Source: Olleya sp. Bg11-27 | Lineage (GTDB): Bacteria; Bacteroidota; Bacteroidia; Flavobacteriales; Flavobacteriaceae | Direction: 5' to 3' | Assembly (NCBI RefSeq): GCF_002831645.1 | Contig: NZ_CP025117.1 | Location: forward strand, 4,045,001 to 4,109,000 | DNA: 64,000 nt | The notes under the pieces: generated by a model | The model's input: the letters and a program-made list of their open reading frames with translations, nothing else | Database searches by the model: none | What the model was told of the DNA's origin: nothing | Part shown: positions 1,713 to 64,000 of the stretch, one piece after another | Layout: each line of letters begins with the position of its first letter | Numbering within the stretch: the first letter of the stretch is position 1 | Translations under genes and position numbers: made by a program

Positions 1713-3671
1713 ATGAAAAAAAAAATACTCTTTGCCGTTGCCCTATTAATTGTGACTAATATTATAGCTCAAACAGAGGCTGAAAGGCAAACCATAATTA
1801 GTGAATACAATCAATCACAAATTAAAGCACTAGAAAAGAAGATAAAGCAAACCAACAAAAACATTCAAAAAGAAATTACAGATTACGTTACAACTAATAA
1901 TGTAGACCGTAAATACACAAATGAGGATGGGACATTGTTTGAAATTAAATATATATTAAATAATAAACCTGTTTATATGTCTACCGATAATGCTACAGAA
2001 GCAATATCTACTAGAACTAATTTTTTACATAATGGTGGTGGTTTAGGTCTAAACTTAGAAGGCCAAAACATGCACGTCGCCACTTGGGATGGAGGGCCAA
2101 CATTATCCACTCACGACGAGTTTTTGGATGACAATACTACGCCAACATCAAGAGTTACAACACCAGATTCTTCTGCCTCAAATGGGGAAAGTAATCACTC
2201 GACTCATGTCTCTGGTACCATAATCGCCAAAGGAACACAAGCTAGCGCTAAAGGAATGGCACCACAAGCAACATTAACTTCTTTTGATTGGGATAACGAT
2301 AGCCTAGAAGCCTTAAATCAAGCCACTACAAATGGTCTTTTATTATCAAACCACTCTTATGGTATTCCTGTTTCAACCAACGGAACCCAAAACGCTCCAA
2401 CATGGATGATGGGATGTTACAATAGTGATGCTGTGGAATGGGATACCGTTGCCTACAACGCTCCTTATTATTTAATGATTGCTTCTGCAGGAAATGACGG
2501 CTCAAATACCTACACTGGAGGACTAGCTAATAACTATGACAAATTAACAACCAATAAAAATGCCAAAAACAATTTAGTTATTGCCAACGCAAGTAATCCA
2601 TTAATAAATCCAAATGGAAGTGGTGAAATGCTAAATTTATTTATCAATACTAGTAGTAGCCAAGGTCCATCTGATGATGGTAGAGTTAAACCAGACATTA
2701 CTGCCGACGGAACCGACGTATATTCTCCTATAAGTACATCTAACTCAAGTTATGACATTTATACTGGAACATCAATGTCAGCACCCAACACCACAGGGTC
2801 TTTGTTATTATTACAACAATACTACAATCAACTAAATAGTAAATACATGAAATCGGCAACACTAAAAGGATTAGTTTGTCACACTGCTGATGATAATACC
2901 TCTAGTCCTGGTCCAGATCCTATTTTTGGCTGGGGACTTTTAAATTCTAAAGTATCCGCAGAAACTATAGAACAAGATGCCACAGATGGCGCTGCTAAAA
3001 TTTTTGAATCTACGTTGAATAATAATGATACCTTTACAACGCAAGTTACTATACAATCAGGACAAACTTTAAGAGCTACATTATGTTGGACCGACCCTGC
3101 TGGTACTGCCCAAGATAATCAAATAAACAGCAGTACTCCTGCTTTGGTTAATGATTTAGATCTAAGAATTACAGACGCTTCAAACAGTACATTTCTACCA
3201 TGGAAATTACAATTGAGTAATGTTCAAGGCTTAGCTGTTAAAGGTGATAACCTAGTAGATAATATTGAACGTGTAGATATAAATAATGCACCAGCTGGTA
3301 CTTATACCATAACTATTAATCATAAAGGAACCTTAACTAATGCTCTGCAAAATTATTCATTAATTATAACGGGAGAAAGTTTAACATCTACTTTAAGTAC
3401 AGATACATTTAAGAAAGAATCAAATTTGTCTGTTTGGCCAAACCCTGCCAAGGAAACTTTAAATTATTCTTTTAAATCTCAAACCAATGGAAAAGTGCAA
3501 ATTTCATTAACCGATATACAGGGGCGTATAGTATTTACTAAAACTCCTTTTGAAAGTCAAACCTCTATAATTGAAGGACAGCTAGATTTAACTGGATATT
3601 CTAAAGGTTTATACTTTTTTAACATCGCGCAAGGAAATTCAACAATTAATAAAAAGGTCATTATTAAATAA
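1713..3671 (+). CDS. secreted subtilisin-like (S8) protease with T9SS sorting domain
   Basis: About 652 residues. A signal peptide (MKKKILFAVALLIV...IIAQ) is followed by a prosegment-like coiled stretch, then an S8 catalytic domain. The Asp sits in ATWDGG (about residue 126), the His in HSTHVSGT (about 162) and the Ser in GTSMSAPN (about 354). After it comes a beta-sandwich (residues of about 430-560, with LVNDLDLRI) like the P-domain found after secreted S8 enzymes. The end is a type A Por/T9SS sorting domain (WPNP near the start, GLYFFNIAQG, final KKVIIK). It should be exported by Sec and then moved across the outer membrane by the type IX system, acting as an extracellular protease. ATG at 1713 is chosen over the in-frame TTG at 1698 because that TTG lies inside the promoter box. 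Confidence 0.9.
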   Translation: MKKKILFAVALLIVTNIIAQTEAERQTIISEYNQSQIKALEKKIKQTNKNIQKEITDYVTTNNVDRKYTNEDGTLFEIKYILNNKPVYMSTDNATEAISTRTNFLHNGGGLGLNLEGQNMHVATWDGGPTLSTHDEFLDDNTTPTSRVTTPDSSASNGESNHSTHVSGTIIAKGTQASAKGMAPQATLTSFDWDNDSLEALNQATTNGLLLSNHSYGIPVSTNGTQNAPTWMMGCYNSDAVEWDTVAYNAPYYLMIASAGNDGSNTYTGGLANNYDKLTTNKNAKNNLVIANASNPLINPNGSGEMLNLFINTSSSQGPSDDGRVKPDITADGTDVYSPISTSNSSYDIYTGTSMSAPNTTGSLLLLQQYYNQLNSKYMKSATLKGLVCHTADDNTSSPGPDPIFGWGLLNSKVSAETIEQDATDGAAKIFESTLNNNDTFTTQVTIQSGQTLRATLCWTDPAGTAQDNQINSSTPALVNDLDLRITDASNSTFLPWKLQLSNVQGLAVKGDNLVDNIERVDINNAPAGTYTITINHKGTLTNALQNYSLIITGESLTSTLSTDTFKKESNLSVWPNPAKETLNYSFKSQTNGKVQISLTDIQGRIVFTKTPFESQTSIIEGQLDLTGYSKGLYFFNIAQGNSTINKKVIIK

Positions 3672-5418: not shown

Positions 5419-6696
5419 ATGAACACGCCTTTAGCCGAAAGATTACGCCCACAAACTTTAGATGACTACATTAGTCAGTCACATTTAGTGGGTCCCAACG
5501 GAACATTAACTAAACATATCCAACAAGGTCTTATACCCAGTATGATACTTTGGGGGCCACCCGGTATTGGAAAAACAACTTTGGCTAATATTATTGCAAC
5601 CACATCAAAACGGCCTTTTTACACTTTGAGTGCTATTAGCTCTGGTGTTAAAGATGTCCGTGAAGTTATTGATAAGGCTAAAAATAGTGGCGGACTGTTC
5701 ACGGCTAAAAATCCAATTTTGTTTATTGACGAGATTCATCGTTTTAGCAAATCGCAACAAGATAGTTTACTACAAGCTGTAGAAAAAGGTTGGGTGACTT
5801 TGATTGGAGCGACCACTGAAAATCCAAGTTTTGAAGTCATTTCTGCATTATTGTCACGGTGTCAGGTTTATATTTTAAAAGCGTTTGAAAAAACAGACTT
5901 AGAGAACCTTTTAAAGCGAGCTATTGCAAAAGATGAGTACTTGTCTCAAAAAAACATAAAACTTAAAGAAACCGCCGCATTATTACGTCTTTCTGGAGGT
6001 GATGCTAGAAAATTATTAAATATTTTTGAGTTGGTGGTTAATAGTGAAACTGAAGAACCTATTACTATCACGGATACTATGGTTTTTGATAAAGTACAGA
6101 ATAATACAGTACGTTATGATAAAACCGGAGAACAGCATTACGACATTGTATCCGCTTTTATAAAATCCATTAGAGGTAGCGATCCTAATGCTGCTGTATA
6201 TTATTTAGCTAGAATGGTTGAAGGTGGTGAGGATGTTAAATTTATTGCTAGACGTTTACTAATATTAGCTAGTGAGGATATTGGTAACGCTAATCCAACC
6301 GCTTTAGTTATGGCTAACACAACGTTTCAAGCAGTGAGTACTATTGGTTACCCTGAATCTAGAATTATCTTAAGTCAGTGCGCCACCTATCTAGCATGCT
6401 CTCCAAAAAGTAACGCTGCTTATATGGCCATAAATCACGCACAACAATTGGTAAAACAAACTGGAGATTTAAGCGTGCCATTAAATATTAGAAATGCGCC
6501 CACAAAATTAATGAAAGAGATTGGTTACGGCGAAGACTATAAATACAGTCATAACTACGCCAACAATTTTGCTAGTCAGGAGTTTTTGCCAAAAGAAGTT
6601 AGTCATACTAAATTATACGAACCTGGTAATAATGCAAGGGAAAATGCCCAACGTGACTTTTTAAAGTCTCGATGGAAAGAAAAATATGGGTACTAG
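5419..6696 (+). CDS. rarA: replication-associated recombination protein A (RarA/MgsA), AAA+ ATPase
   Basis: 425 residues, the usual length for RarA/MgsA/WRNIP1. Walker A is GPPGIGKT (46-53) and Walker B is LFIDEIH (101-107). After these come sensor 1 GATTENPSF, an arginine-finger region ALLSRC, and the C-terminal tetramerisation region with [21 protein letters not shown]. The family loads at stalled replication forks and binds single-strand-binding protein. It stands alone, divergent from the rhomboid gene. Its stop overlaps the next convergent gene by 4 bp. Confidence 0.95.
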
Positions 6697-7484
6697 AATT
6701 TAATCTCTATATTTTTCACTTTAAGATTATCATTAATATACTCCGCTAAAACCCACTGGCTATTCAGTTTATAGACTATTGATTCTGAACCTTTTACAAA
6801 ATAAACGTCTTCTTTTCCAGAGTATAAAATGGTATATCCCCTGGTATTACTATTATTTTTTAAATGATAACTAACAACAGAGCCTGAAATTAAATCGGCT
6901 GTATACACCTCTTTTCCAAACACCTGTGAGGATACGTGATTAGGCGTTGTATTTACTAGCAAGTTAGGAGTACTTACATCGGATTTAACTATTGTATCTG
7001 GTTTATCTTCTTGTACCACATCATTTTGAGCAACTGTTTTCTCCTTGTAATTATGCGTAAAGGTTTGAAAAGTCTTAATAGTGTTACGTAAAGCAACATT
7101 ATAAGCAACTTTATATATTTTGTCTCTAGAAACACCTTCTTCAGAAGTAAATATACTTTCGTTTTTACAATTCCTAAAACTGATTTTTAACTTCGTTTTA
7201 AACATACTACTATCTTCAGTAACATCTGCATACACCACTAAACAGCCATTATTTGCAGCATCTTCGGGCAAGTCTTCAGAATCTAGAAAAACAATAAAAT
7301 TCTGTTTCTGCAATAAAAACTGAGTTAATCCATTTAATTGATAATCATTAGCTTTTTTTTGACAAGAAAACTGTTCTGGTACCACAATATATTTGTAATC
7401 ATTTAATTGTTTTTGAGCATTTAAAGTGATTGAAAAACTAAGTAAAAAAAGGAATGCTAAGACTATTTTATGTTCTAATTTCAT
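6693..7484 (-). CDS. exported protein of unknown function
   Basis: 263 residues with a clear signal peptide (hydrophobic VLAFLFLLSFSITLNAQ, cleavage after the AQ near residue 24). The mature part begins with LNDYKYIVVPEQFSCQ and is mixed alpha/beta. There is a low-complexity linker around residues 145-180 and a small C-terminal beta domain. Two soluble cysteines (in FSCQ and NGCLV) might pair in the periplasm. I recognise no family or catalytic motif. It is the last gene of a minus-strand run with the HAD phosphatase, 4 bp downstream of it, so it is probably co-transcribed. Confidence 0.75.
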   Translation of the reverse strand: MKLEHKIVLAFLFLLSFSITLNAQKQLNDYKYIVVPEQFSCQKKANDYQLNGLTQFLLQKQNFIVFLDSEDLPEDAANNGCLVVYADVTEDSSMFKTKLKISFRNCKNESIFTSEEGVSRDKIYKVAYNVALRNTIKTFQTFTHNYKEKTVAQNDVVQEDKPDTIVKSDVSTPNLLVNTTPNHVSSQVFGKEVYTADLISGSVVSYHLKNNSNTRGYTILYSGKEDVYFVKGSESIVYKLNSQWVLAEYINDNLKVKNIEIKF

Positions 7485-8181: not shown

Positions 8182-9463
8182 CCAATATTATATTAAATAG
8201 TGTTTTAAAATGTTTCCAGCGGTCTTGCTTACTAAACGTATAGTTATGAAATACAGGTACAAACGTGCCATTTACCTTTTTTATAGTGCTTATAAGTCTA
8301 TTAAGCGCCTGCTCTTTATCTAACAGTGAATTATATTTTAAAAATGCAAAATCTATCGCCTGATAAGGTACCACCTTGAGTGGCGTCTGCACTTCAAAAT
8401 CTAAGTCATAAAATAAAAAAGGTGTACACGTGCCGGCTCTAAACCCCAAATGATTTACATAACCCATAGTATAATCTTCAGGTATTTCTAACTCGACTAA
8501 ATTACGATAGGACTCCGGTAGATTAACTTTAGAAAACGATTGTCTAGACCCAAGGATAGCATTATTAATAATCGCTTCCATCCTACTCTTTTCCTCTTTA
8601 AGCAACTCTATATCTGTTAACGCAAAAAAAGAAATTTTAATACCTACTTGACAATAATCTGCAACGTGCTTTATTAACGACACAAATTTTTGTTTTTGAG
8701 GATTTATATTTTTATCATAGGTCGAAAAATCTCCTAATAAAAAGAAAAATACAAATTTATACTTTGAAGATTTTTGTTTATTTATAATATACTTATAAGT
8801 ATCGTACGGATCACGTTTAAAACCAGATAATACCGAGTATCGCTGATACAAACGTTTAAATCTAAAAGTCAAAACATCTATAAAAGTACCACTTAGAGTA
8901 CGCATCATTCCTTTTAATTTATACTCGTAAGCAACTGGGACATCAATGACGGGTATGACATTATATTGTTGCTTGGGAAACTGATAATCAGGATAATTAT
9001 TTTCTAAAAGTTTTTTAAATTTACAGGCCCAAATATCAACCACAGGTTGGTCTAAAAAGTTATTTTTAAACGCCATACTTTCTTGTGCTGTAAAACGACC
9101 ATAATCATCTTTTACATGGGGTAAATACTCCTCATATCTACTTATCAAGTAAAAAGATGCTGCAAAAATATCAAAAGGCATAGCACTTTTTTCGCCAGCA
9201 GGAAAAAAACATTTAGTGTCTTCCCAAAGCAAAACGGAAATTTCTATATCTGACAAACCTTGCTCAAATAAGAACTCACTACTACGAATAAAAATTTCGT
9301 TACCTAAAGGTTGTCTTGTATACGACATCTTTAAACTATCGTGCGCGATAAACTCCTCAATAGTTGTTGTAAAACTAACCGGTAAACCCAAAATTCTAGT
9401 ACAAATTTGCTTAAAAACATATTTGATTCTAGGGGTTATTTTATGTGTGTAAACTAAAAGCAT
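8165..9463 (-). CDS. polysaccharide deacetylase-like family protein (DUF7033 type)
   Basis: 432 residues with no signal peptide. The N-terminal half (to about 150, with FPFDIFAASFYLISRYEEYLP-like sequence) matches the family of flavobacterial proteins annotated as polysaccharide deacetylases with a DUF7033 head. The C-terminal half has an NodB-like barrel order: VIPVIDVPVAYEYK in place of the usual TxDDG start, FFFLLGDFSTYD, SFFALTDIELL, LGFRAGTCTPF, and a final FHNYTF. The canonical metal-binding DD of NodB is not obvious, so activity is uncertain. It heads a three-gene minus-strand operon with the YjjG-like gene and the exported protein. Confidence 0.7.
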   Translation of the reverse strand: MLLVYTHKITPRIKYVFKQICTRILGLPVSFTTTIEEFIAHDSLKMSYTRQPLGNEIFIRSSEFLFEQGLSDIEISVLLWEDTKCFFPAGEKSAMPFDIFAASFYLISRYEEYLPHVKDDYGRFTAQESMAFKNNFLDQPVVDIWACKFKKLLENNYPDYQFPKQQYNVIPVIDVPVAYEYKLKGMMRTLSGTFIDVLTFRFKRLYQRYSVLSGFKRDPYDTYKYIINKQKSSKYKFVFFFLLGDFSTYDKNINPQKQKFVSLIKHVADYCQVGIKISFFALTDIELLKEEKSRMEAIINNAILGSRQSFSKVNLPESYRNLVELEIPEDYTMGYVNHLGFRAGTCTPFLFYDLDFEVQTPLKVVPYQAIDFAFLKYNSLLDKEQALNRLISTIKKVNGTFVPVFHNYTFSKQDRWKHFKTLFNIILDAKKK

Positions 9464-54058: not shown

Positions 54059-54451
54059 GGGGTCGACTGGTTTTGACAGCAAGATTAATTAGATTGTAAG
54101 CACGTCGTGTAATGGTATTGAAACACGTTAAAGACTAGACCAACTTTTTAATCGGCGAGAATAACTACGCTTTAGCTGCCTAATCCGAATTATAGTAGGA
54201 TTAAGCCTCGGTACACTAGGTGTACGAGCTTTATGTCTCCGGAAAGCCTTGATTGACGGCGTTCCATTTGAGGCATCGAAAATGTCAATATAGACTTAGT
54301 AGCGCTTTGATGCTTTGTTGAAACTAAAAAAGATAAGTTGTAAGTGGGTTGTCTTTAACCAGCTTACAATCGAAAACCTAAGAAAAGAATAAACGTGTAG
54401 AAAGCCTTTTGGTTACTTGTTTGGACGAGAGTTCGATTCTCTCCGACTCCA
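54059..54451 (+). ncRNA. ssrA: transfer-messenger RNA (tmRNA)
   Basis: The 5' GGGGTCG (54059-54065) pairs with CGACTCC near the 3' end. The T arm GAGAGTTCGATTCTCTC lies at about 54427-54443, and the tRNA-like part closes there. The tag ORF 54154-54183 reads GENNYALAA then TAA, a usual flavobacterial tag. The 3' CCA is not encoded, since the sequence continues ACTTT, so it must be added enzymatically. tmRNA rescues stalled ribosomes and marks the peptide for proteolysis. Confidence 0.96.
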
Positions 54452-54455
54452 CTTT

Positions 54456-54704: not shown

Positions 54705-55427
54705 ATGATAAGTTGTTTAATAATAGATGATGATAAAAAAACTGTTAATTTTATAAAAACAGTAGGTAATGACTTTTCTGAAATCTCATTTGAAGAAATC
54801 AATGAAAATCAAGAATTTGCGGCAAACACCATTTTAAAAAGTAAACCCGAAATTGTCATTATTAATATTGAATCTACTAAAATTAATTTTTTAGAATTCC
54901 TATTTGAAATAACTCAATATAGTAAAAACGAACCTGCTTTTATAGCTCTTTCATCTTCAAAGATTAAAGCTTTTGATTCCTATAAATATAACTTTTCAGA
55001 TTTTTTATTAAAACCATTAAATGAGCTCTCAATAAGAAAAAGTATTCTAAAATACAAAAGAAGACACCCCGTTAAACAAATTGAAACCATTTGCCTTAAA
55101 TCCTATAAGGATTACCAATACTTAAATATAAATAACATTCTTTATTTAAAAGCAGATAACAATACTACAGATTTTCATATGTCTGATGGCAAAGTTATAA
55201 GCGCCTATAAGACATTAAAAGTCTTTGAAAATTTATTACCCCATGCCTTTTTAAGAATTCATAAAAGCTATATCATTAATAGAAATTCTATTTCTAGAAT
55301 TCACTACGGAAAATCGATGTGTATTATTAATAATGAACATAAGATTCCATTCACAAAAACATTTATAGGAAATATAGATTTAATAAACACATCGCTTTCA
55401 AAAAACACATTAGTTACATTAAACTAA
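54705..55427 (+). CDS. LytTR-type response regulator with degenerate receiver
   Basis: 240 residues. The N-terminal receiver-like domain (1-115) keeps the acidic pocket in IIDDD (8-10) and a Lys in FLLKPL (103). The expected phosphorylation Asp is Asn54 (IVIINIES instead of a D-ending strand). So it is unlikely to be phosphorylated in the normal way. Residues of about 128-235 form a LytTR DNA-binding domain (YQYLNINNILYLKADNN, FLRIHKSYIINRNSI). LytTR regulators bind direct repeats upstream of target genes. It is the first gene of the region that leads to the RiPP locus, with no kinase gene directly beside it. Confidence 0.85.
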   Translation: MISCLIIDDDKKTVNFIKTVGNDFSEISFEEINENQEFAANTILKSKPEIVIINIESTKINFLEFLFEITQYSKNEPAFIALSSSKIKAFDSYKYNFSDFLLKPLNELSIRKSILKYKRRHPVKQIETICLKSYKDYQYLNINNILYLKADNNTTDFHMSDGKVISAYKTLKVFENLLPHAFLRIHKSYIINRNSISRIHYGKSMCIINNEHKIPFTKTFIGNIDLINTSLSKNTLVTLN

Positions 55428-55642
55428 ATTCCCTATATAAAAGTATTATTTAGCTCACAGACATATAGTCTTCACTAAACCACTTGATTTTTGATAGTTA
55501 ACACGAAAACTCCTGTCTAACTTAACTCACGAACACTCCTGTATTTCAAATAAATAGCACGCTAAATTGTTGACAATTTAAAAAATAATGGAGCTGTATT
55601 TATAACCTAAAAAACTATTGTTAAATCTCAAAATTTTGTAAC

Positions 55643-55798
55643 ATGAAATTCTTAAAATTCTTAATTACTTTATTCCTACTTGCAAGTATTATATCTTCTT
55701 GCACACCACAAACACTAGAGGAAGACCAAGACAATATTGTTCAAAACACACAAGCAACTGGAGACGATGATATCGTTGATGACGGAAGTAAAGAATAG
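55643..55798 (+). CDS. 51-residue lipoprotein
   Basis: A short gene too small for most gene finders. MKFLKFLITLFLLASIISSC is a clear lipoprotein signal with the cysteine at residue 20. The 31-residue remainder is acidic: TPQTLEEDQDNIVQNTQAT, then GDDDIVDDGSKE. The A-rich context in front of the ATG suits Bacteroidota. It sits between the LytTR gene and the sensor kinase gene. It may be a membrane-anchored signalling or accessory protein of the kinase system; that is inference. Confidence 0.65.
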   Translation: MKFLKFLITLFLLASIISSCTPQTLEEDQDNIVQNTQATGDDDIVDDGSKE

Positions 55799-55833
55799 AC
55801 TATACTTTAATAAAATTATTAAAACCTTTTTTT

Positions 55834-55841
55834 TAGATTTG
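55834..55841 (+). promoter_or_regulatory. -7 box of the sensor kinase gene
   Basis: TAGATTTG matches TAnnTTTG exactly, 19 bp before the TTG start codon at 55861. Confidence 0.5.
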
Positions 55842-55860
55842 TTTTAAACAGACAAATCAA

Positions 55861-57897
55861 TTGAAGAACAATCATTTATATTATAAATTTTGTATACTAC
55901 TAACTCTAAGTTCTATTACACAATCCTGTATTAAAACAAACGAGAAGGATAACACAATACCGCAAAGTGAAGAAAATGACAGTATTAAAATCTGGATCAA
56001 ATCTTCAAAAAATAAATCTTATCCTGCACATAAAAGAAAAGAATTTTTAATAAAATCATATCAAACCATCACATCTTCGGAACTGAAAATTTCTCAATTA
56101 AGAACTTTGAGTACTTTAGCTTATCAGAATTTAAAACTTGGAGACACATTACTATTTAAAAAGAGAAACAAGGAAGCTTTAACTCTTGCAAAAAAAATAA
56201 AAGACTCCTTTACTATTGGAGATACAAATTGGAATTATGCTAGTTTTTACAACAAAATACAAGTATATGATAGTGCCTATTACCACTTTAATATAGCACA
56301 TGACTATTTTGATAAAAGTGGTTATGTCTATGAATCTGCAAAGACACAATACGGAATGGCTTTTATTAAAGGACGTTTTAAAGATTATTCAGGAAGTGAA
56401 ATTTTAACGTTTAAAGCAATTGATAAATTAAAAAAAATAAAAGATTACAAATCCTTATTTTCTTGTTACAACCACCTAGGTACTCTACAAAACGATATTC
56501 ATGAATATGATAAAGCCTTATTTTACCATAATATAGCTTTAAAATATTTGAGAAAATTAAAAAATAATGGACTCCAACATCAATCTATCCTTAACAACAT
56601 GGGCAATACCTATTTAAAAAAGGGGGATTACGCTAAAGCTATAAAATACTTTAATAAAGTATTGGCTATTAAAAATATAAAATTCAAAAATATAGGCCAA
56701 TATGCCACAGTATTAAGTAATAAAGCATATGCCAAGCTTTTAACTAAAGACACTACCAATGTTGCTAAAGACTTAATTACAGCTTTACATATAAGAGATA
56801 GTATCAATAATAAAGGAGCCATAATAATTAGCAAAATTCATTTAGCCCAATATTACAGCTATAAACAAGACACAAGTAAAGCTATTAATTACCTTAAAGA
56901 TGCTAATATTCTAGCTAAAGAAATTAAAAACAGTAGGGATTATTTAGAGAGCCTATTTTTATTATCCAAATTAGACAACAAGCATTCTTCAATATATCTA
57001 GAAAGGCACATTCAGTTTAATGATAGTATCCAAATTGTAGAACGTAATATTCAAAACAAGTTTACTAGAATCGCTTACAAAACAGATGAATATATAGAAG
57101 AAACTAAAAGGTTATATCAACAAAAAATATGGATATTATTAACCGGCTTTGGATTAATTTCAATATTAGGGTTATTATTCTTTATTAAAACACAAAAAAC
57201 TAAAACGGAAAAACTAAAATTTGAAAATGAACAACAAAAAGTAAATGAGCAAATTTACCTCTTAACTTTAAGACAGCAAGAAAAATTAGAAAAAGAAAAA
57301 ATTAAAGAACGAAATAGAATTGCAGAAGAATTACATGATGGTATATTGGGCAAATTATTTGGAACTAGGCTTGGTCTAGGTTTTTTAGATATTAAAGGGG
57401 ATAAAAAACTAACGAACCAACATCAATTATTCTTAGAAGAATTACAAATCATTGAAAAAGACATAAGAGAAGTCTCTCATAAGTTAAGTTCTAATTTTGA
57501 TAGTACACAAATTAGTTTTCCAACGATAGTTCTTCAACTTCTAGAAAACAAATGTAAAATAGGTGATTTTAATTACGACCTCGATTTCGATGAGTATATC
57601 AATTGGCAAAAAATAAATAGAAAAATTAAAGTGAGCCTCTATAGAATAATACAAGAGACTCTCCAAAACATAATAAAACATGCTCATGCTAAAAATGTAA
57701 ACGTAGTTTTCTCATTCAATACTAACACTTTAATAGTAATAATAAAAGATGATGGAATTGGATTTAACTTAAAACAAAAGAAAAAAGGCATTGGGATAAA
57801 AAATATTTCATCTAGAGTAAAGAAGTTAAAGGGTATATTTAATATTCAATCAAAACTCAATCAAGGAACAATAATCAAATTTCAAATACCTATTTAA
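55861..57897 (+). CDS. TPR-domain sensor histidine kinase (lipoprotein-like)
   Basis: 678 residues from a TTG start at 55861. The N-terminus looks like a lipobox (LTLSSITQSC, Cys near 23). TPR repeats fill about 50-400 (for example QSILNNMGNTYLKKGDYAKA). A transmembrane helix lies at about 424-442 (IWILLTGFGLISILGLLFF). The H-box has His492 in RIAEELHDGILGKLFG, a HisKA_3 (NarX/DesK) type. The ATPase has NIIKHAHA, DDGIGF and GIGIKNI motifs. It would sense something in the periplasm through the TPRs. It lies 11 bp before its response regulator, so they form a two-component pair. Confidence 0.9.
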   Translation: MKNNHLYYKFCILLTLSSITQSCIKTNEKDNTIPQSEENDSIKIWIKSSKNKSYPAHKRKEFLIKSYQTITSSELKISQLRTLSTLAYQNLKLGDTLLFKKRNKEALTLAKKIKDSFTIGDTNWNYASFYNKIQVYDSAYYHFNIAHDYFDKSGYVYESAKTQYGMAFIKGRFKDYSGSEILTFKAIDKLKKIKDYKSLFSCYNHLGTLQNDIHEYDKALFYHNIALKYLRKLKNNGLQHQSILNNMGNTYLKKGDYAKAIKYFNKVLAIKNIKFKNIGQYATVLSNKAYAKLLTKDTTNVAKDLITALHIRDSINNKGAIIISKIHLAQYYSYKQDTSKAINYLKDANILAKEIKNSRDYLESLFLLSKLDNKHSSIYLERHIQFNDSIQIVERNIQNKFTRIAYKTDEYIEETKRLYQQKIWILLTGFGLISILGLLFFIKTQKTKTEKLKFENEQQKVNEQIYLLTLRQQEKLEKEKIKERNRIAEELHDGILGKLFGTRLGLGFLDIKGDKKLTNQHQLFLEELQIIEKDIREVSHKLSSNFDSTQISFPTIVLQLLENKCKIGDFNYDLDFDEYINWQKINRKIKVSLYRIIQETLQNIIKHAHAKNVNVVFSFNTNTLIVIIKDDGIGFNLKQKKKGIGIKNISSRVKKLKGIFNIQSKLNQGTIIKFQIPI

Positions 57898-57908
57898 ATA
57901 ACTCAAAA

Positions 57909-58592
57909 ATGGAAAATAAAAAATATTCGGTTCTTATTATAGATGACCATCCATTAATTACAGATGCCTATAAATCAGCTTTTAATTATTATAGCAAACA
58001 GAATGAATCAATTAAATTTTCTATAAAAATAGCTCAAAATTGTGATACTGCATTTGAATTGATAAATGAATTTTCAACAAAAGAAAAACAGATTGATATT
58101 ATTTTTTTAGATATTAAGTTACCTCCATCTAAAGATAGAAAAATTCTTTCAGGAGAAGATTTAGGCTTGTTAATAAACAAATTATTCCCAAATACAAAAA
58201 TTATAATTTCTACTACACTTAATGATAATTACCGTGTGCATAGTATTTTTAAAAGTATCGATCCTGATGGATTTTTAATCAAAAATGATATAACACCAAA
58301 AGAACTTATAGAATCAATTCATTCTATATTAAACGACCCTCCTTACTACAGTAAGACTGTTGTAAAATTATTACGTAAACAAGTCGCAAATGATTTTATA
58401 CTGGATAATATTGATAGAAAAATACTATATGAACTATCCATAGGAACAAGAATGAAAGACCTCCCTAATCTTTTGCCGCTTTCTATAGCAGGAATAGAAA
58501 AGAGAAAACGACACCTAAAACAAATCTTTAATATAAAAAGTCCTGATGACAGAGAGTTACTATTTATAGCTAGAGAAAAAGGGTTCATTTAA
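57909..58592 (+). CDS. NarL/LuxR-type response regulator
   Basis: 227 residues. The receiver has acidic residues D12 and D13, phospho-acceptor D68 in FLDIKLPP, and the Lys in FLIKND (about 120). The C-terminus is a LuxR-like helix-turn-helix (LYELSIGTRMKDLPNLLPLSIAGIEKRKRHL), where the usual GLSNKEIA text is strongly changed. Phosphorylation by the adjacent kinase should activate it. The following barrel gene is the natural candidate target, which is inference. Confidence 0.88.
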   Translation: MENKKYSVLIIDDHPLITDAYKSAFNYYSKQNESIKFSIKIAQNCDTAFELINEFSTKEKQIDIIFLDIKLPPSKDRKILSGEDLGLLINKLFPNTKIIISTTLNDNYRVHSIFKSIDPDGFLIKNDITPKELIESIHSILNDPPYYSKTVVKLLRKQVANDFILDNIDRKILYELSIGTRMKDLPNLLPLSIAGIEKRKRHLKQIFNIKSPDDRELLFIAREKGFI

Positions 58593-58612
58593 TTCGCAAA
58601 CAACTTCAAGAC

Positions 58613-58642
58613 AAAAAAGTAAGGACGCTCCTTACTTTTTTT
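58613..58642 (+). terminator. terminator after the two-component system
   Basis: AAAAAAGTAAGGA-CGC-TCCTTACTTTTTT, an extended 13-bp stem with a 3-nt loop. It separates the kinase/regulator transcript from the barrel gene. Confidence 0.8.
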
Positions 58643-58700
58643 ATGTTTAAAAAGCTAAAGAACTGATAACTAAGTTCTAATTTTATGAAAAGCTTTTTAA

Positions 58701-61085
58701 ATGAAATTATTCAGATTAATTATTTTTCTTCTTCTCGCTTCTTTGTCTTCATATTCACAGAGCGAAATAAGAGGAACTATTACTGACTCTTCAAATACTG
58801 CTATTGAATTTGCAAATGTTATTTTAACAGATAAAAAAAATGAAATAATTACGGGCACTGTAACGGATGAAAGTGGAGGTTTTAAATTATTAGTAAGAGA
58901 TGGTAACTATAAATTAAGCATTAGCTATATAGGTTACACAACCATAGACAAAGATTTAGCTATAAATGACAATATAAAATTAGATAAGATAATTCTTACT
59001 CTAAGCGAGAATAATCTAGATGAGGTTGTTATAAAAGGTAATAAACCTCTTATTGAAAGAAAAATAGATAGAATTGTTTTTAACGTAGATAATAGTATTA
59101 GTGCATTAGGGGGGGATGGAATAGATGTATTGACTGTAACCCCTGGGATTAGGGTTGTTAATGATAAAATTTCAATGATAGGTCGGTCCAATATGGGAGT
59201 AATGATTAACGAAAAGATAATAAACCTTTCTGGTGATGATTTAGTAACATTTATTAGAAATCTAAACTCAGATGATATCAAACGTATAGAAGTGATAACC
59301 AACCCTTCTGCTAAATATGACGCTGAAGGTAATGGAGGCTTAATAAATATAGTTACAAAAAAGCAAAGAAATGACAGCTATAACTGGAGTATCACAAATA
59401 GTTTGTCTAAAAGTGAAAAATCAATTTATAGAGGTGGCGCAAGTTTTAATTACAAAAAAGACAAACTAACTTTAGCTTCAAGGATAGGATATTCAAAAGG
59501 AAGTTTAGAACCTTTTCAAAAGTACGTCCTAACCTATCCCAATTATATATGGGAAGAAGAAAATAACAAAAGAAATTATTTAAATAGTATTAGAGGTGGC
59601 TTATCGGTAGATTACAGCATAAGTCCAAAAACCAATATTGGCGGAGAGTACTCTTTCTCGGACAGTAAGCCAATAGTCAAAAGTAATAATGTCTCTAGAA
59701 TTTACAGTCCTTCAAAGGTATTGGATTCTTTGATTTCAAATGATTCTAGAATACAACAAGATACAAAAAACCATTCTCTCAACTTATACTCTACTGTAAA
59801 ATTAGATACGTTAGGAACACAAATAAATTTTAATATAGACTACTTAAATTATAATAAAAAAATAAATAATACTTTTTTTACTAATTCATTTTTTTCAAAC
59901 GGCGAAATAAAACCAAATAGTTTTTTTTCTGCAAATAATTTAAGCGATTTAGATATTAATATTTTTTCTTCAAAATTAGATTTAATACTACCAACTAAGT
60001 GGATAGACTTGGAGTTTGGAGGTAAATTAACCTTCACAAATAACGAAAGTGATATTGCATTTTTTAATAACACTTCAGGTATAAGTGTCCTGGATCCCTC
60101 AAAAACAAACGCTTTTACTTATGAAGAGAACTTACAAGCTTTATATATTTCGGGAACAAAATATTTTTCTAATAGAGTAAGTCTTAATGTTGGTCTAAGA
60201 GGCGAATTTACGCAAACGCAAGGGGTTTCAAAAGAATTAAATCAAACAAATACAAATGATTATTTTGAACTATTCCCATCTCTCTATTTTAACTATGTAA
60301 TTAAAGATTATAAAATTTTAACCTTTAATTATAATAGAAGAATAAATAGGCCTAAATACAATAATTTAAATCCATTTCAATTTTTTACAAATTCGTACAA
60401 TGTTACTCAAGGTAATCCTTTCCTAGCTCCCTCCTTTGCCAATAACTTTGAATTATCTTATATATACAAAAACGCATCATATTCATCACTCTATTGTAAT
60501 TATACAACGAATGGAGTCGATCAAGTTACTTTTGTTTCCCCTGATTCTATTATTCAAAATGTAATTCCTACAAACTTTTATAATCAAATAGATGTTGGAA
60601 TATTCCAATGGTACTCTTTTAAACTAGCTAGTTTTTGGGAAAACACTATCGACGCCTCTCTTTTTTATTCAAAAACAGATTCGGATATCCCAAGCATAGT
60701 ACAGGGTGTAGACTCATGGTCTAGTAGTATAAATACTAATAGTTCTTTTGTATTAGACGCTAATCAACGTTTTAAAGCTCAATTAGGTTTCACATATCAA
60801 TCCCCTTCATTATCTGGTAGCTATAAATTATCAAGTTTTTACCAATTAACATTTGGTATTAAAGGGTCTTTTTTCAATAAAACACTTACTGCAGCCATAA
60901 ATGCTTATGATATATTAAAAACAGATGAAAAAACATTTACACAAGTAGTCAACGGTATTAGACAAGAAAATTTTGATTACCGAGATTTAAGAAGAATTCG
61001 GTTCTCGATGAAATATAATTTCGGGAAAGCGATAAAGTCTAAAAAAATAAAAACAAGTAATGAAGAAGAAAAAAAGAGATTATAG
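58701..61085 (+). CDS. outer-membrane beta-barrel (TonB-receptor-like) protein with carboxypeptidase-like domain
   Basis: 794 residues. A signal peptide (LIIFLLLASLSSYSQ) is followed by a CarboxypepD_reg-like domain (about 22-100, with EIRGTITDSSNTAIEFANV) and a plug-like domain (DRIVFNVDNSISALGGDG ... NPSAKYDAEGNGGLINI). The rest is an OMP_b-brl_3 beta-barrel up to about 780 (GLRGEFTQT, NYNRRINRPKYNNLNPF). The C-terminus is a short basic tail. Members of this type are often next to radical-SAM peptide loci in Bacteroidota and may take up or export the product. It ends 292 bp before the precursor gene. Confidence 0.87.
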   Translation: MKLFRLIIFLLLASLSSYSQSEIRGTITDSSNTAIEFANVILTDKKNEIITGTVTDESGGFKLLVRDGNYKLSISYIGYTTIDKDLAINDNIKLDKIILTLSENNLDEVVIKGNKPLIERKIDRIVFNVDNSISALGGDGIDVLTVTPGIRVVNDKISMIGRSNMGVMINEKIINLSGDDLVTFIRNLNSDDIKRIEVITNPSAKYDAEGNGGLINIVTKKQRNDSYNWSITNSLSKSEKSIYRGGASFNYKKDKLTLASRIGYSKGSLEPFQKYVLTYPNYIWEEENNKRNYLNSIRGGLSVDYSISPKTNIGGEYSFSDSKPIVKSNNVSRIYSPSKVLDSLISNDSRIQQDTKNHSLNLYSTVKLDTLGTQINFNIDYLNYNKKINNTFFTNSFFSNGEIKPNSFFSANNLSDLDINIFSSKLDLILPTKWIDLEFGGKLTFTNNESDIAFFNNTSGISVLDPSKTNAFTYEENLQALYISGTKYFSNRVSLNVGLRGEFTQTQGVSKELNQTNTNDYFELFPSLYFNYVIKDYKILTFNYNRRINRPKYNNLNPFQFFTNSYNVTQGNPFLAPSFANNFELSYIYKNASYSSLYCNYTTNGVDQVTFVSPDSIIQNVIPTNFYNQIDVGIFQWYSFKLASFWENTIDASLFYSKTDSDIPSIVQGVDSWSSSINTNSSFVLDANQRFKAQLGFTYQSPSLSGSYKLSSFYQLTFGIKGSFFNKTLTAAINAYDILKTDEKTFTQVVNGIRQENFDYRDLRRIRFSMKYNFGKAIKSKKIKTSNEEEKKRL

Positions 61086-61377
61086 AATGTTGACTAAAAC
61101 AAAAGTATTTTAATCAACACCTGTCCAGTGAAAAAAATAATTGATACTATAATTTATCAATATTAATTCAATCTACTGAGATATTTCTTCTCAAAAACAA
61201 AGATTTAGAAACACTAAAATCTAATGTTTCCAAATAAAATAGTTTGGAATAAAGTATATAGAGTTAACAGATTAATTAAAATGGAAGACTCATCAAATAA
61301 TAAAAATATCAACCAAAATTCCGACTACACGGCTTATATGTAGATTATTTATTTTTTTTAATTTAACACGTTTTATT
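61086..61377 (+). other. non-coding stretch before the RiPP precursor, with a decayed leader copy
   Basis: 292 bases between the barrel gene and the precursor gene. The main content is the decayed leader at 61181-61237 (see that entry). A frame of 39 codons (61224-61343, starting MFPNKIVWNKVYRVN) overlaps it. I see no terminator after the barrel stop and no clear TAnnTTTG box before the precursor. Confidence 0.5.
61181..61237 (+). pseudogene. decayed second copy of the RiPP leader
   Basis: Reading from ATA at 61181: I-F-L-L-K-N-K-D-L-E-T-L-K-S-N-V-S-K then TAA. The intact leader starts MKFFLKNKDLGALKSNVSK. The two match at about 14 of 17 aligned residues, with ATA close to the start position and a stop after SK, so no core peptide is made. 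It is 141 bp upstream of the precursor ATG. Confidence 0.75.
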
Positions 61378-61569
61378 ATGAAATTTTTTCTAAAAAACAA
61401 AGACCTAGGAGCATTAAAATCTAATGTTTCTAAATTTAAGAACCCAGCATTAAAAAATGCTGCTTTAGGAGCTGTTAATACAGAATTTATTGGAGGTACA
61501 GCATACTCTAGAGCGGTAGAATGGGGAAAACTAATATGGTCGAGAGGGATTATTATTGTTGAAGAATAA
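61378..61569 (+). CDS. RiPP precursor peptide with double-glycine leader
   Basis: 63 residues. Positions 1-40 are a lysine-rich leader (MKFFLKNKDLGALKSNVSK, then FKNPALKNAALGAVNTEFIGG) that ends in GG at 39-40, the cleavage site of C39-type peptidases. The predicted core is residues 41-63: it starts TAYSRAVEWG, continues KLIWSRG and ends IIIVEE. It contains no cysteine. It holds three aromatic-small-basic triplets: Y43-S-R45, W49-G-K51 and W54-S-R56. Directly downstream are a radical SAM/SPASM maturase and a C39 peptidase ABC exporter, so the role as precursor is strongly supported by context. The structure of the product is not known. Confidence 0.85.
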   Translation: MKFFLKNKDLGALKSNVSKFKNPALKNAALGAVNTEFIGGTAYSRAVEWGKLIWSRGIIIVEE

Positions 61570-61591
61570 TTCCTTTTTCTAAATTAATGAT

Positions 61592-61619
61592 AAGCCCCTT
61601 CTTAATAGGGGCTTGTTTT
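61592..61619 (+). terminator. attenuating hairpin between precursor and maturase
   Basis: AAGCCCC-N9-GGGGCTT followed by GTTTT. It can act as a weak terminator so that the precursor is made in excess over the maturase. An ATG at 61587 lies just in front of it and is therefore a poor start for the maturase. Confidence 0.6.
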
Positions 61620-61631
61620 AAAAACAAAATA

Positions 61632-62888
61632 ATGAAAATAGATAATATTGTAGTCAAAATAGCCAGTAGATGTAATATAAACTGTAAATACTGTTATATG
61701 TATAATCATGAAGATTTATCATATCTAAAACAGCCAAAGTTTATATCTGAAGAAGTAACAACGCAGTTTATTGATAGATTAATAGAAAATTCAAGGGCAA
61801 ATGATATTAACCAATACTCAATATGTCTTCATGGAGGAGAGCCTATGCTTATGGGAAAAAAAAGGATAAAACAATTTATATCACATTTTGATAGATTAAA
61901 AGAGGAGGAAATAGCTGTCCAATTTTCAATGCAAACTAATGGAATATTAATAGATGATGAGTGGTGTGATTTATTTAAAGAACTAAACATTAGTGTAGGT
62001 ATAAGTTTAGATGGACCCAAAGAAGTTAATGATATATACCGTGTAGACCATAACGAAAAAGGAACGTTCGATAGAGTTATAGATGGTATAAATATAATGC
62101 GAAAAAACAAACTACCCACAGGAACTCTATCGGTAATGAACTTACATGCTGACCCTACGGAAATGTATAATCACTTTATAAATATGAAAATATCATTCGT
62201 TGATATCCTTTTTATGGATTTAACCTATGATAATTTTGATAGATTTGTAACACCAAACATAAAACACTCAATGTCAGATTGGTACATGCAATTGTTTGAC
62301 CTATGGTTTCACAACAAAGAACACACGTATTTTAAATTTAGACTATTTGATGATTTTATAGGAAATATTTTAGGGGGAAATACCTCTGCCGATTTTGTTG
62401 GTACGGCAGATAAAAGTATTTTGGTTTTAGAAACTAATGGCGACTTAGAGCCCGTCGATTCATTAAAAATTTGCGGAGATTCTTTTACTAAAAGAGATTA
62501 TAATGTAAGTAAAAATAAGCTATCGGACTTAAACAACAATGACCTTATCTTATTATATCACAAAAGCGGTACGTTTTTACCTAAAAAGTGCTTAGCATGT
62601 CCAGTAAAAGAACTGTGTGGAGGTGGTTATCTAACGCATCGTTATAGTGCAAAAAACGGCTTTAATAATCCTTCAGTATATTGTAATGATCTATTGCGAT
62701 TAATTACCCATATACAAAATAAAATAGTAGATGAAATGCCAGAGGATTACAGAAAAAGTAGTAATATACAGAAATTAACTTACGAAAATGCCCTTCAGAT
62801 TATTGAAGAAACATTACCCACTATAGAAGAGCCAAAATATATTGAATTTTTAGAAAGTTTTAAAAAAGAAGAAAAAGAATATGTATAA
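61632..62888 (+). CDS. radical SAM/SPASM peptide maturase
   Basis: 418 residues from ATG 61632 (the ORF is open to an ATG at 61587, before the hairpin). The SAM-radical cluster motif is C14-x3-C18-x2-C21 (CNINCKYC). HGGEPMLMGKKR is the GGEP-type SAM-binding motif and SVGISLDGPKEVND follows. The SPASM region has C in LKICGDS, then KKCLACPVKELCGGGYLTHRYS, and a last C in VYCNDL, enough for two auxiliary iron-sulfur clusters. CGGGYxxHRYS is characteristic of maturases that make cyclophane crosslinks at aromatic residues. It is expected to modify the adjacent core peptide. It overlaps the exporter gene by 8 bp. Confidence 0.92.
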   Translation: MKIDNIVVKIASRCNINCKYCYMYNHEDLSYLKQPKFISEEVTTQFIDRLIENSRANDINQYSICLHGGEPMLMGKKRIKQFISHFDRLKEEEIAVQFSMQTNGILIDDEWCDLFKELNISVGISLDGPKEVNDIYRVDHNEKGTFDRVIDGINIMRKNKLPTGTLSVMNLHADPTEMYNHFINMKISFVDILFMDLTYDNFDRFVTPNIKHSMSDWYMQLFDLWFHNKEHTYFKFRLFDDFIGNILGGNTSADFVGTADKSILVLETNGDLEPVDSLKICGDSFTKRDYNVSKNKLSDLNNNDLILLYHKSGTFLPKKCLACPVKELCGGGYLTHRYSAKNGFNNPSVYCNDLLRLITHIQNKIVDEMPEDYRKSSNIQKLTYENALQIIEETLPTIEEPKYIEFLESFKKEEKEYV

Positions 62889-64000
62889 AAAACCCTTTGC
62901 TTTTATAAAACAGTTGGATAGTCAAGATTGTAGTTTTGCCTGCCTAAAAATGGTTGGTAAAAGTTATAATAAAGAATTTAATATTGACAATGATACTATT
63001 TTAAACTCTAATATAATAAAGCAAGGTATTCTAGTCAGTGATGTAGATACAAATGCGAAAAAACTTGGGTTTGAGACCCTTTTAGTAGATATAGACCTTG
63101 AAGGAATAATTCAAAACGCACCTCTTCCTGCCATATTTCAATGGAATCAAAATCATTTTGTAACCGTTTACAAAATAACGAGTAATAAAATTTATGTAGC
63201 AGATCCAGCTTTTGGTAAAACGACATATTCAAAAAAAGATTTTTTAAAAGGATGGACACAAGGTAGAGGGAATGGCATTGCACTACTGTTAGAACCAACA
63301 GATAAAATTTACAACTATAAAAAAAAAACAATAAAAGAAAAAAAGGTCGATTTAAAATATATAACTAGATATTTAAAAAAGCATAAAAAACAATTTTTTT
63401 TAATATCGCTTACACTACTACTATCTTCGTGTATAGAACTAGTTTTCCCTTTTTTTACGCAAAAAATAATAGATAAAGGAGTCGCTTTTAAAGATATCAA
63501 TTTTATTTACATGGTTCTTATTGCGCAAATATTCGTTTTTATAAGTAGAATTAGTTTAGAATATTATAGGTCATGGTTATTTATTCATATCAGTAGTAGA
63601 ATTAGCTTATCCATTATTTCTGATTTTCTAATAAAAATGATGAAATTACCTATTAAATTCTTTACTTCTAAAAATATAGGAGATTTAATACAGCGTATTC
63701 AAGACCATAAGCGGATTGAAAACTTTCTATCAGAAGACCTTATTCAGGTTGTTTTCTCGTTTTTTAGCATTATTATTTACTCTTCTATTTTATTCTATTT
63801 TAACACTGATATATTTTTAGTTGTATTTATAAGTACTTTAATAGAGCTGATTTGGATTTTTAGTTTTTTAAAAAAAATAAGAATCAATGATCATAAAAAT
63901 TTTGCGATTCAGTCTGAAGATCAAAACAAGATATATGAATTTATTAATGCTGTACAAGAAATAAAACTTAATAATTTAGAAGAACAAAAAACAAATCAGT
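62881..64000 (+). CDS. C39-peptidase ABC exporter (PCAT), 3' end outside the window
   Basis: At least 373 residues are visible and the frame is open at the window edge. Residues 1-140 are a C39 peptidase domain: active Cys17 in QLDSQDCSFACLKMV, His92 in NHFVTVY, and Asp108 in VADPAFG. It should cut the leader after the GG of the precursor. Transmembrane helices follow from about residue 170 (FFLISLTLLLSSCIELVFPFF). The ABC ATPase part must lie beyond 64000. The ATG at 62881 overlaps the maturase stop by 8 bp, so translation is coupled. Together they form a complete maturation-and-export module. Confidence 0.92.
   Translation, partial: MYKKPFAFIKQLDSQDCSFACLKMVGKSYNKEFNIDNDTILNSNIIKQGILVSDVDTNAKKLGFETLLVDIDLEGIIQNAPLPAIFQWNQNHFVTVYKITSNKIYVADPAFGKTTYSKKDFLKGWTQGRGNGIALLLEPTDKIYNYKKKTIKEKKVDLKYITRYLKKHKKQFFLISLTLLLSSCIELVFPFFTQKIIDKGVAFKDINFIYMVLIAQIFVFISRISLEYYRSWLFIHISSRISLSIISDFLIKMMKLPIKFFTSKNIGDLIQRIQDHKRIENFLSEDLIQVVFSFFSIIIYSSILFYFNTDIFLVVFISTLIELIWIFSFLKKIRINDHKNFAIQSEDQNKIYEFINAVQEIKLNNLEEQKTNQ

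Follow-up and report, generated by a model that had tools for sequence, protein, structure and literature searches.

The closest described relatives of the peptide system reported here are maturases that build small rings on three-residue motifs. In the accessible part of a review (PMC11002830), YhhB is described as joining C3 of Tyr and C2 of His to the C-beta of Arg, XncB as linking Trp C6 to the C-beta of Arg or Asn, and XncB and MscB as cyclising triplets of the form aromatic-x-(Asn, Arg, Ser). DarE, the darobactin enzyme, joins Trp to Lys and can also use Arg, according to the available text of PMC9055067. ChlB is called a multiple cyclophane synthase in the title of a publication, and the title of its PDB entry indicates a crystal structure that includes the leader region of its own precursor. 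We analysed a window of 64,000 nucleotides (nt) from Olleya sp. Bg11-27 (G000:C1:4045001-4109000 of the complete 4.31-Mb genome), in which a precursor peptide gene lies next to a gene for a radical S-adenosylmethionine (SAM)/SPASM enzyme. The family matches of the enzyme, the aromatic triplets kept in the precursor cores and the pairing of a C39 exporter with a GG leader lead us to read these genes as an operon for a triceptide-type ribosomally synthesised and post-translationally modified peptide (RiPP), which would carry up to three small rings. We put the probability of this reading at about 0.82.

A putative triceptide-type operon

The final 5.3 kb of the window encode, all on the + strand, a barrel protein, the precursor, the radical SAM/SPASM enzyme and a C39-ABC exporter. 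The elements that matter most are the following.

61378-61569, + strand: precursor peptide, 63 amino acids (aa); leader residues 1-40 (61378-61497), core residues 41-63 (61498-61566)
61504-61512, + strand: YSR, residues 43-45, predicted cross-link of the Tyr ring to the Arg C-beta
61522-61530, + strand: WGK, residues 49-51, predicted cross-link of the Trp ring to the Lys C-beta
61537-61545, + strand: WSR, residues 54-56, predicted cross-link of the Trp ring to the Arg C-beta
61589-61617, + strand: RNA hairpin with an 11-bp stem and a 7-nt loop, in the gap between the precursor and maturase genes
61632-62888, + strand: radical SAM/SPASM maturase, 418 aa when counted from the start that agrees with its relatives; open reading frame (ORF) called from 61587
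62881-64000, + strand: C39 peptidase/ABC exporter, running past the window end

A first-pass annotation of the window, made from the letters alone, had described a 63-aa precursor with a GG leader, a radical SAM/SPASM enzyme with CNINCKYC and CGGGYLTHRYS motifs and a C39 exporter. All three ORFs are in the ORF list, both motifs are present in the maturase, and the operon frames are intact once the exporter is completed from the genome. The leader ends in GG (residues 39-40), and a GG before the core together with a Peptidase_C39 domain on an ABC protein is the signature of a double-glycine leader and its C39 exporter. The 23-residue core, TAYSRAVEWGKLIWSRGIIIVEE, has no Cys, as had been noted, and the residue numbers given for its three triplets are right; their spacing, which had been called regular, is only roughly so (6 residues, then 5).

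With the precursor as query (E <= 0.01), a sample of 299 genomes of the window's family returned its own copy alone, and searches of Pfam and NCBIfam gave no match; the first-pass annotation had not recognised leader or core from any described family. Related loci, which we designate by L numbers, encode precursors that are 26-44% identical over the full length (L097, L066, L098, L100, L099, L016 and L106); unlike that of the window, the L106 precursor has no GG. The maturase gene probably starts at 61632 rather than at 61587, because the 15 extra codons of the longer frame overlie the hairpin and the later start fits those of the relatives. A start at 61632 leaves a 62-nt gap after the precursor gene.

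The maturase is related to cyclophane-forming enzymes

The best NCBIfam matches of the maturase were YhhB (NF041707; 355.2 bits, cut-off 445) and then FxsB (TIGR04269; 312.8, cut-off 370), with weaker scores for XyeB (195, cut-off 450), DynA (170, cut-off 450) and DarE (114.5, cut-off 650). ChlB was the nearest PDB sequence (E 1.5e-61; profile E 4e-98). It was also the best fold match of the predicted maturase model (mean pLDDT 70.8; TM 0.78, E 1.6e-23, 32% identity), followed by anSME, by sactipeptide-maturase entries and, far behind, by SuiB (E 3.5e-8). The three radical-SAM Cys residues and the SPASM residues C320, C323, C329 and C351 (numbered from 61632) are invariant in six aligned maturases. 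Judged by sequence and predicted fold, the maturase is related to cyclophane-forming radical SAM/SPASM enzymes.

YhhB provides the best family model and, in the accessible accounts, has Tyr-x-Arg substrates. YSR occurs in the window core and also in the L129 precursor, next to a YhhB-type enzyme that scores above the curated cut-off. The window maturase differs from YhhB in its score, and its peptide differs in pairing Trp and Tyr with Lys or Arg, in having no His triplet and in its association with a GG/C39 exporter and an outer-membrane protein. On the YhhB model the maturases of L097, L066, L098, L100, L099, L016, L026 and L117 reach 333-355, below the cut-off, which none passed in a 296-genome sample of the phylum; the L129 maturase, from another sample, clears it with 469 (of L129 and L130, the one scored was L129). 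L129 and L130 (genomes G873 and G811) have a 719-aa maturase, and their precursor ends in DYSRMHHRHNRS, with YSR, HHR and HNR.

XncB and MscB, which we take to belong to the XyeB and FxsB families respectively, resemble the window enzyme in working on aromatic triplets; they use leaders other than the window's, and the window maturase stays below the cut-offs of both families. ChlB/ChlA (PDB 9gm3, 9gmc) is nearest among solved structures. As far as the available description goes, ChlB forms one domain of a fusion protein that also carries an alphaKG-HExxH hydroxylase, whereas no such hydroxylase domain was found here. Darobactin, in the accessible text, shares the Trp to Lys/Arg C-C link on W-S-K or W-S-R, but the window core lacks the fused bicycle motif and the window enzyme is remote; given its DarE score, darobactin is a poor comparator.

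Maturase homologues were found at E <= 1e-20 in 5 of the 299 genomes of the window's family, its own included, and at E <= 1e-70 in 37 of the 296 genomes of a second family's sample. In a named genome collection, the Elizabethkingia and Chryseobacterium genomes had 10 maturase loci, and most of the other loci were remote. In a tree of 45 maturases, in which several longer branches outside this clade are unsurely placed, the window and L097 are sisters (100/100) within a clade of seven that is supported at 99/95. The order barrel protein, precursor, maturase, exporter is common to L066, L098, L099, L100, L101, L016 and L106. L016 carries a second maturase and a 292-aa gene for a putative transposase; L106 has a 354-aa gene without Pfam match before the exporter, where L100 has a 0.7-kb gap; and L026 has all parts as more distant versions.

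Aromatic triplets are kept in diverging cores

We counted how often W, Y or F in the cores is followed at +2 by K, R, Q, N, E or D. All three aromatics of the window core are (0.76 expected; equalled in 1.2% of 5000 shuffles, or in 0.06% when only K/R is allowed at +2), a statistic that is suggestive only because the motif was chosen after being seen. Adding the relatives takes the pattern far beyond chance: in the nine other near cores, 28 of 31 aromatics have such a residue at +2, against 9.1 expected, and none of 5000 shuffles reached 28. The excess is confined to offset 2 and is absent at offsets 1, 3 and 4. Over all ten near cores, 31 of 34 W/Y/F lie inside triplets. Of 14 near loci, 10 entered the near count: L101 almost repeats L099, L104 and L105 almost repeat L103, and L102 shares a contig with L016, so these four were set aside. 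The L106 precursor, lacking GG, was split after AKG. The 14 more distant representatives have 38 aromatics, 26 of them in triplets, compared with 12.9 expected (0/5000 shuffles); this count omits the near-copies L018, L107-L110, L112, L113, L115, L117-L125, L127, L130 and L141. The triplets of the nine other near cores are:

L097: WIN, FGQ, WSR
L066: WTQ, WTK
L098: FNR, WNQ, FDK
L100: YSQ, YDR, YTR
L099: YAQ, YSQ, YTE, YGQ, YSR
L016: WLK, WMK (plus HGD)
L106: FSR, WER
L103: WSN (three times), WRN
L026: WEE, WGE, WGE, WAE

The window's WSR thus recurs in L097, and W-x-K is found elsewhere in L066 (WTK), L016 (WLK, WMK) and L017 (WVK). Arg or Lys as second ring partner, as first proposed, would fit the window core; the relatives also offer Gln, Asn and Glu. 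The third residue in the 31 triplets of the ten near cores is Arg in 9, Gln in 7, and Lys, Asn and Glu in 5 each, and in the nine other cores Arg/Lys make up 11 of 28 and Gln, Asn or Glu 17 of 28. The triplet partner is therefore not specifically basic, and a basic third residue is particular to the window peptide.

Leaders are better conserved than cores, with a mean identity of 0.39 versus 0.23, and were the more alike part in 19 of 21 pairs among seven precursors. The triplets are kept in cores that otherwise diverge; selection thus holds the triplet while the rest drifts, as a ring site predicts. The first-pass annotation had proposed a cyclophane maturase installing up to three aromatic-X-basic rings, and had named homologous cores without triplets beside a conserved maturase as evidence that would tell against it. 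No such core was seen among the 10 nearest distinct ones; two of the 14 more distant ones, discussed below, are of this kind. With best matches to cyclophane families and kept triplets the proposal fits the sequence tests and is supported.

A hairpin separates the precursor and maturase genes

For the 62-nt gap of the window the folding energy is -17.2 kcal/mol (z -3.88). A hairpin is present in the precursor-maturase gap of all 15 loci examined, with stem sequences that differ from locus to locus; these 15 include the close kin L017/L018, L099/L101 and L103/L104/L105, so that the independent cases number 11. Thirteen loci have gaps of 41-85 nt, each with a hairpin, and the 11 of them that were folded gave z-scores of -3.07 to -6.34. 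L099 and L101, whose gaps are longer, have a perfect inverted repeat directly after the precursor (read by eye). The check left aside the gaps of the distant loci L027-L030, L109-L130 and L138-L141.

The hairpin is possibly an attenuator or an mRNA stabiliser; attenuation and mRNA protection both remain because the T-runs after the stems vary. The nearest precedent in the available literature is cinA-cinM of the cinnamycin cluster, where an inverted repeat between the precursor gene and the first modifying enzyme was shown to be a transcriptional attenuator (PMC5408092, accessible text). Cinnamycin differs in being a lantibiotic of Streptomyces made by unrelated genes.

Alternative interpretations

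Several observations weigh against the triceptide-type reading. For none of the NCBIfam models shown does the maturase exceed the curated cut-off, which leaves it outside both the YhhB equivalog and the FxsB subfamily. Two of the 14 distant representatives, L030 and L139, have no W/Y/F triplet at all, and a third, L028, has one triplet for five aromatics. F-x-K/N also occurs within leaders (9 of 10), so the triplet motif alone is not diagnostic, and the precursor ORFs and core starts behind all these counts were chosen by eye from printed ORFs. Hairpins are found in other gaps as well: 4 of 12 same-strand control gaps (35-95 nt) reached z <= -3, compared with 11 of 11 cluster gaps (Fisher P 0.001; our own shuffling script with 60 shuffles for each control gap, 200 for each cluster gap). 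A hairpin peculiar to cluster gaps is thus too strong a claim. Finally, the W-G-K of streptococcal tryglysin is made into another ring system, a tetrahydrobenzindole, as the available part of PMC8092268 reports. The window's WGK might take this course, or its Lys-Trp and Arg-Tyr pairs might be joined in the manner of streptide or ryptide; we consider this highly improbable, given that SuiB is remote in fold (E 3.5e-8 versus 1.6e-23 for ChlB) and that the W-x-K sites of the relatives do not keep Gly.

The maturase may instead modify only one or two triplets, such as YSR and WSR, and leave the rest as bystanders. Lys is the least documented partner of this enzyme class in the literature examined, the accessible part of PMC11002830 naming Arg, Asn, Asp, Ser and Ala, and L016, L066 and L106 have two triplets only. 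Against bystanders speak the 31 of 34 near-core aromatics that fall within triplets and the return of W/F-x-K in L066 (WTK), L098 (FDK), L016 (WLK, WMK) and L017 (WVK, FSK), and we regard partial modification as rather unlikely. A different modification altogether, such as epimerisation or a thioether, or a silent or decayed operon, is improbable: many SPASM enzymes do catalyse other chemistry and a decayed second leader copy (see below) lies upstream of the precursor gene, but the core has no Cys, the frames are intact, and the family and fold matches are cyclophane enzymes. A daropeptide-like fused bicycle, with one ether and one C-C bond, is scarcely credible. In the darobactin core the C-C half is formed by W-S-K/R, and Arg is accepted by DarE too (PMC9055067, accessible text), but the window core has no W-x-W, and the DarE and DynA models score 114.5 against 650 and 170 against 450.

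Exporter, membrane microprotein and outer-membrane protein

In the genome the exporter gene runs to its end and encodes 724 aa (L007:5882-8056 = G000:C1:4107881-4110055), with Peptidase_C39, ABC_membrane and ABC_tran domains in Pfam. Eight loci with this operon type have exporters 65-72% identical to it, versus 45% for two other C39-ABC proteins of its own genome. The L098 exporter (G670:C77, 3723-5902) is divided between frames of 390 and 316 aa, either because the gene is broken or through a sequencing error. A further C39-ABC locus of the Olleya genome, L143 (G000:C1:1634000-1642500), has three short GG-leader peptides of the type LGxxLxKAEQxxIxGG, at 2780-3007, 5522-5716 and 7135-7329 (oriented on the - strand).

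Directly after the exporter gene lies an ORF for a 43-aa membrane microprotein (L007:8056-8187, genome 4110055-4110186). An ORF of ~40-43 aa follows the exporter in 9 of the 9 loci read (the window, L016 at 9088-9210, L066, L097-L101 and L106), the survey being of these nine exporters with those of more distant loci outside it; in L097 the printed ORF has 54 aa and an inner ATG was taken (41 aa). The microprotein has one hydrophobic, single-pass stretch and the pattern GKIP...LGI...VLF. It was detected in 3 of 148 second-family genomes (E <= 1e-4), each time at a known cluster locus, and family searches gave chance-level matches only, none convincing. No HlyD adaptor gene accompanies the exporter: the 43-aa ORF is alone in the 1.35 kb after the ABC gene, the stretch that was searched, with the rest of the genome outside it. 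By comparison, proteins of 429-436 aa, HlyD-like by their N-terminus, follow 5 of 6 other C39-ABC genes, two of them in the same genome. A Pro and a Gly of the microprotein are in register with these N-termini; hhalign (E 0.0039, probability 8.6%) lent the idea of a shortened HlyD N-terminus too little weight, and we dropped it. In L026 and L144, proteins of 140-141 aa after the exporter resemble cut-down HlyD adaptors.

Upstream of the precursor lies the barrel protein gene.

58701-61085, + strand: outer-membrane beta-barrel protein with OMP_b-brl_3 and CarboxypepD_reg-like domains (Pfam)

The barrel protein is 44-49% identical in seven related loci, always upstream on the same strand, and is absent from L097 within the 3.6 kb examined. 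When the L099 protein was searched against the window genome, the window copy scored 787 bits (49%) and the next paralogue 143 bits (25%). From this linkage the barrel protein is predicted to be a dedicated partner of the cluster. In L099, L100 and L101 a gene with weak matches to FeeM (N-acyl amino acid synthase) or autoinducer synthases precedes the barrel protein gene.

Neighbouring sequences

Between the barrel protein and precursor genes we found a remnant of a second precursor.

61181-61237, + strand: decayed second leader copy, IFLLKNKDLETLKSNVSK followed by a stop, no ATG

It is 84% identical over 56 nt to the 5' end of the intact precursor gene just downstream. The Bacteroidota -7 promoter motif is TAnnTTTG; none was found in 61086-61378 or in 58593-58710, and Rfam gave nothing at gathering score over 55000-64000. 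We considered the two-component genes at 55861-58592 as operon members and rejected them for want of a match on the maturase strand of related loci or on either strand of nine loci; several of the stretches taken stop near the barrel protein gene, and the check is not strict. A tmRNA gene (54059-54452, tag GENNYALAA) lies shortly before the regulator and cluster genes, and ssrA is a frequent landing site of mobile islands.

Discussion

The genes, their family, the kept triplets, the position of the hairpin and the linkage of microprotein and outer-membrane protein can be read directly from the sequences compared. By analogy with the named families, the maturase would recognise the 40-residue leader, form a 5'-deoxyadenosyl radical and take H from the C-beta of the third residue (R45, K51, R56). 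The carbon radical would then attack the aromatic ring two places earlier (Y43, W49, W54), so that as many as three small cyclophanes would form at minus 2 Da apiece. The calculated monoisotopic mass of the 23-residue core is 2675.44 without rings and 2673.43, 2671.41 and 2669.40 with one, two and three. The C39 domain would cleave after G40, and the ABC part would send the 23-residue ring-locked peptide to the periplasm. For the remaining parts we offer guesses: the hairpin after the precursor gene may keep precursor levels above those of the enzyme, the microprotein may aid export, and the outer-membrane protein may pass the peptide out, take it up or protect the producer.

Aromatic-x-Arg rings are not new, since XncB and YhhB have already been reported with Arg. 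In the parts of the literature examined, Tyr/Trp-x-Arg chemistry is known, and Lys, Gln and Glu partners for this enzyme branch were not met. No title or abstract opening returned by our searches of the open-access literature named such a cluster, a scope that did not take in the main triceptide landscape and ChlB papers; family, parts and varied ring sites look undescribed. The new elements are the hairpin in the precursor-maturase gap, the dedicated outer-membrane barrel protein and the membrane microprotein, and the wider family that combines them with varied triplets is a more interesting result than the window peptide. This family may represent a distinct flavobacterial triceptide cassette with a shared leader and one enzyme lineage that cyclises many triplets in freely reshuffled cores. 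Each peptide would have at most five of them, pairing Trp, Tyr or Phe with any of Arg, Lys, Gln, Asn and Glu; the microprotein would replace HlyD at the C39-ABC exporter, and the product would pass through, or act against, a dedicated barrel; we hold this broader proposal to be speculative and, as it stands, unlikely.

Related leaders and enzymes with about ten different cores form a natural substrate series, and the range of partners accepted (Lys, Gln, Glu) and the order of ring formation should therefore be readable by simple co-expression. The microprotein adds a new candidate to the components of peptide exporters, and questions of target, route or immunity can be approached concretely through the linked outer-membrane protein. 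In darobactin and dynobactin, cross-linked three-residue rings lock the peptide into a shape that mimics a beta-strand. For triceptides, a 2025 paper (PMC12257519) states that activities have yet to be elucidated. If the cassette proposal is true, there would be a parallel to darobactin in ring-locked strands that are directed at, or transported by, an outer-membrane protein.

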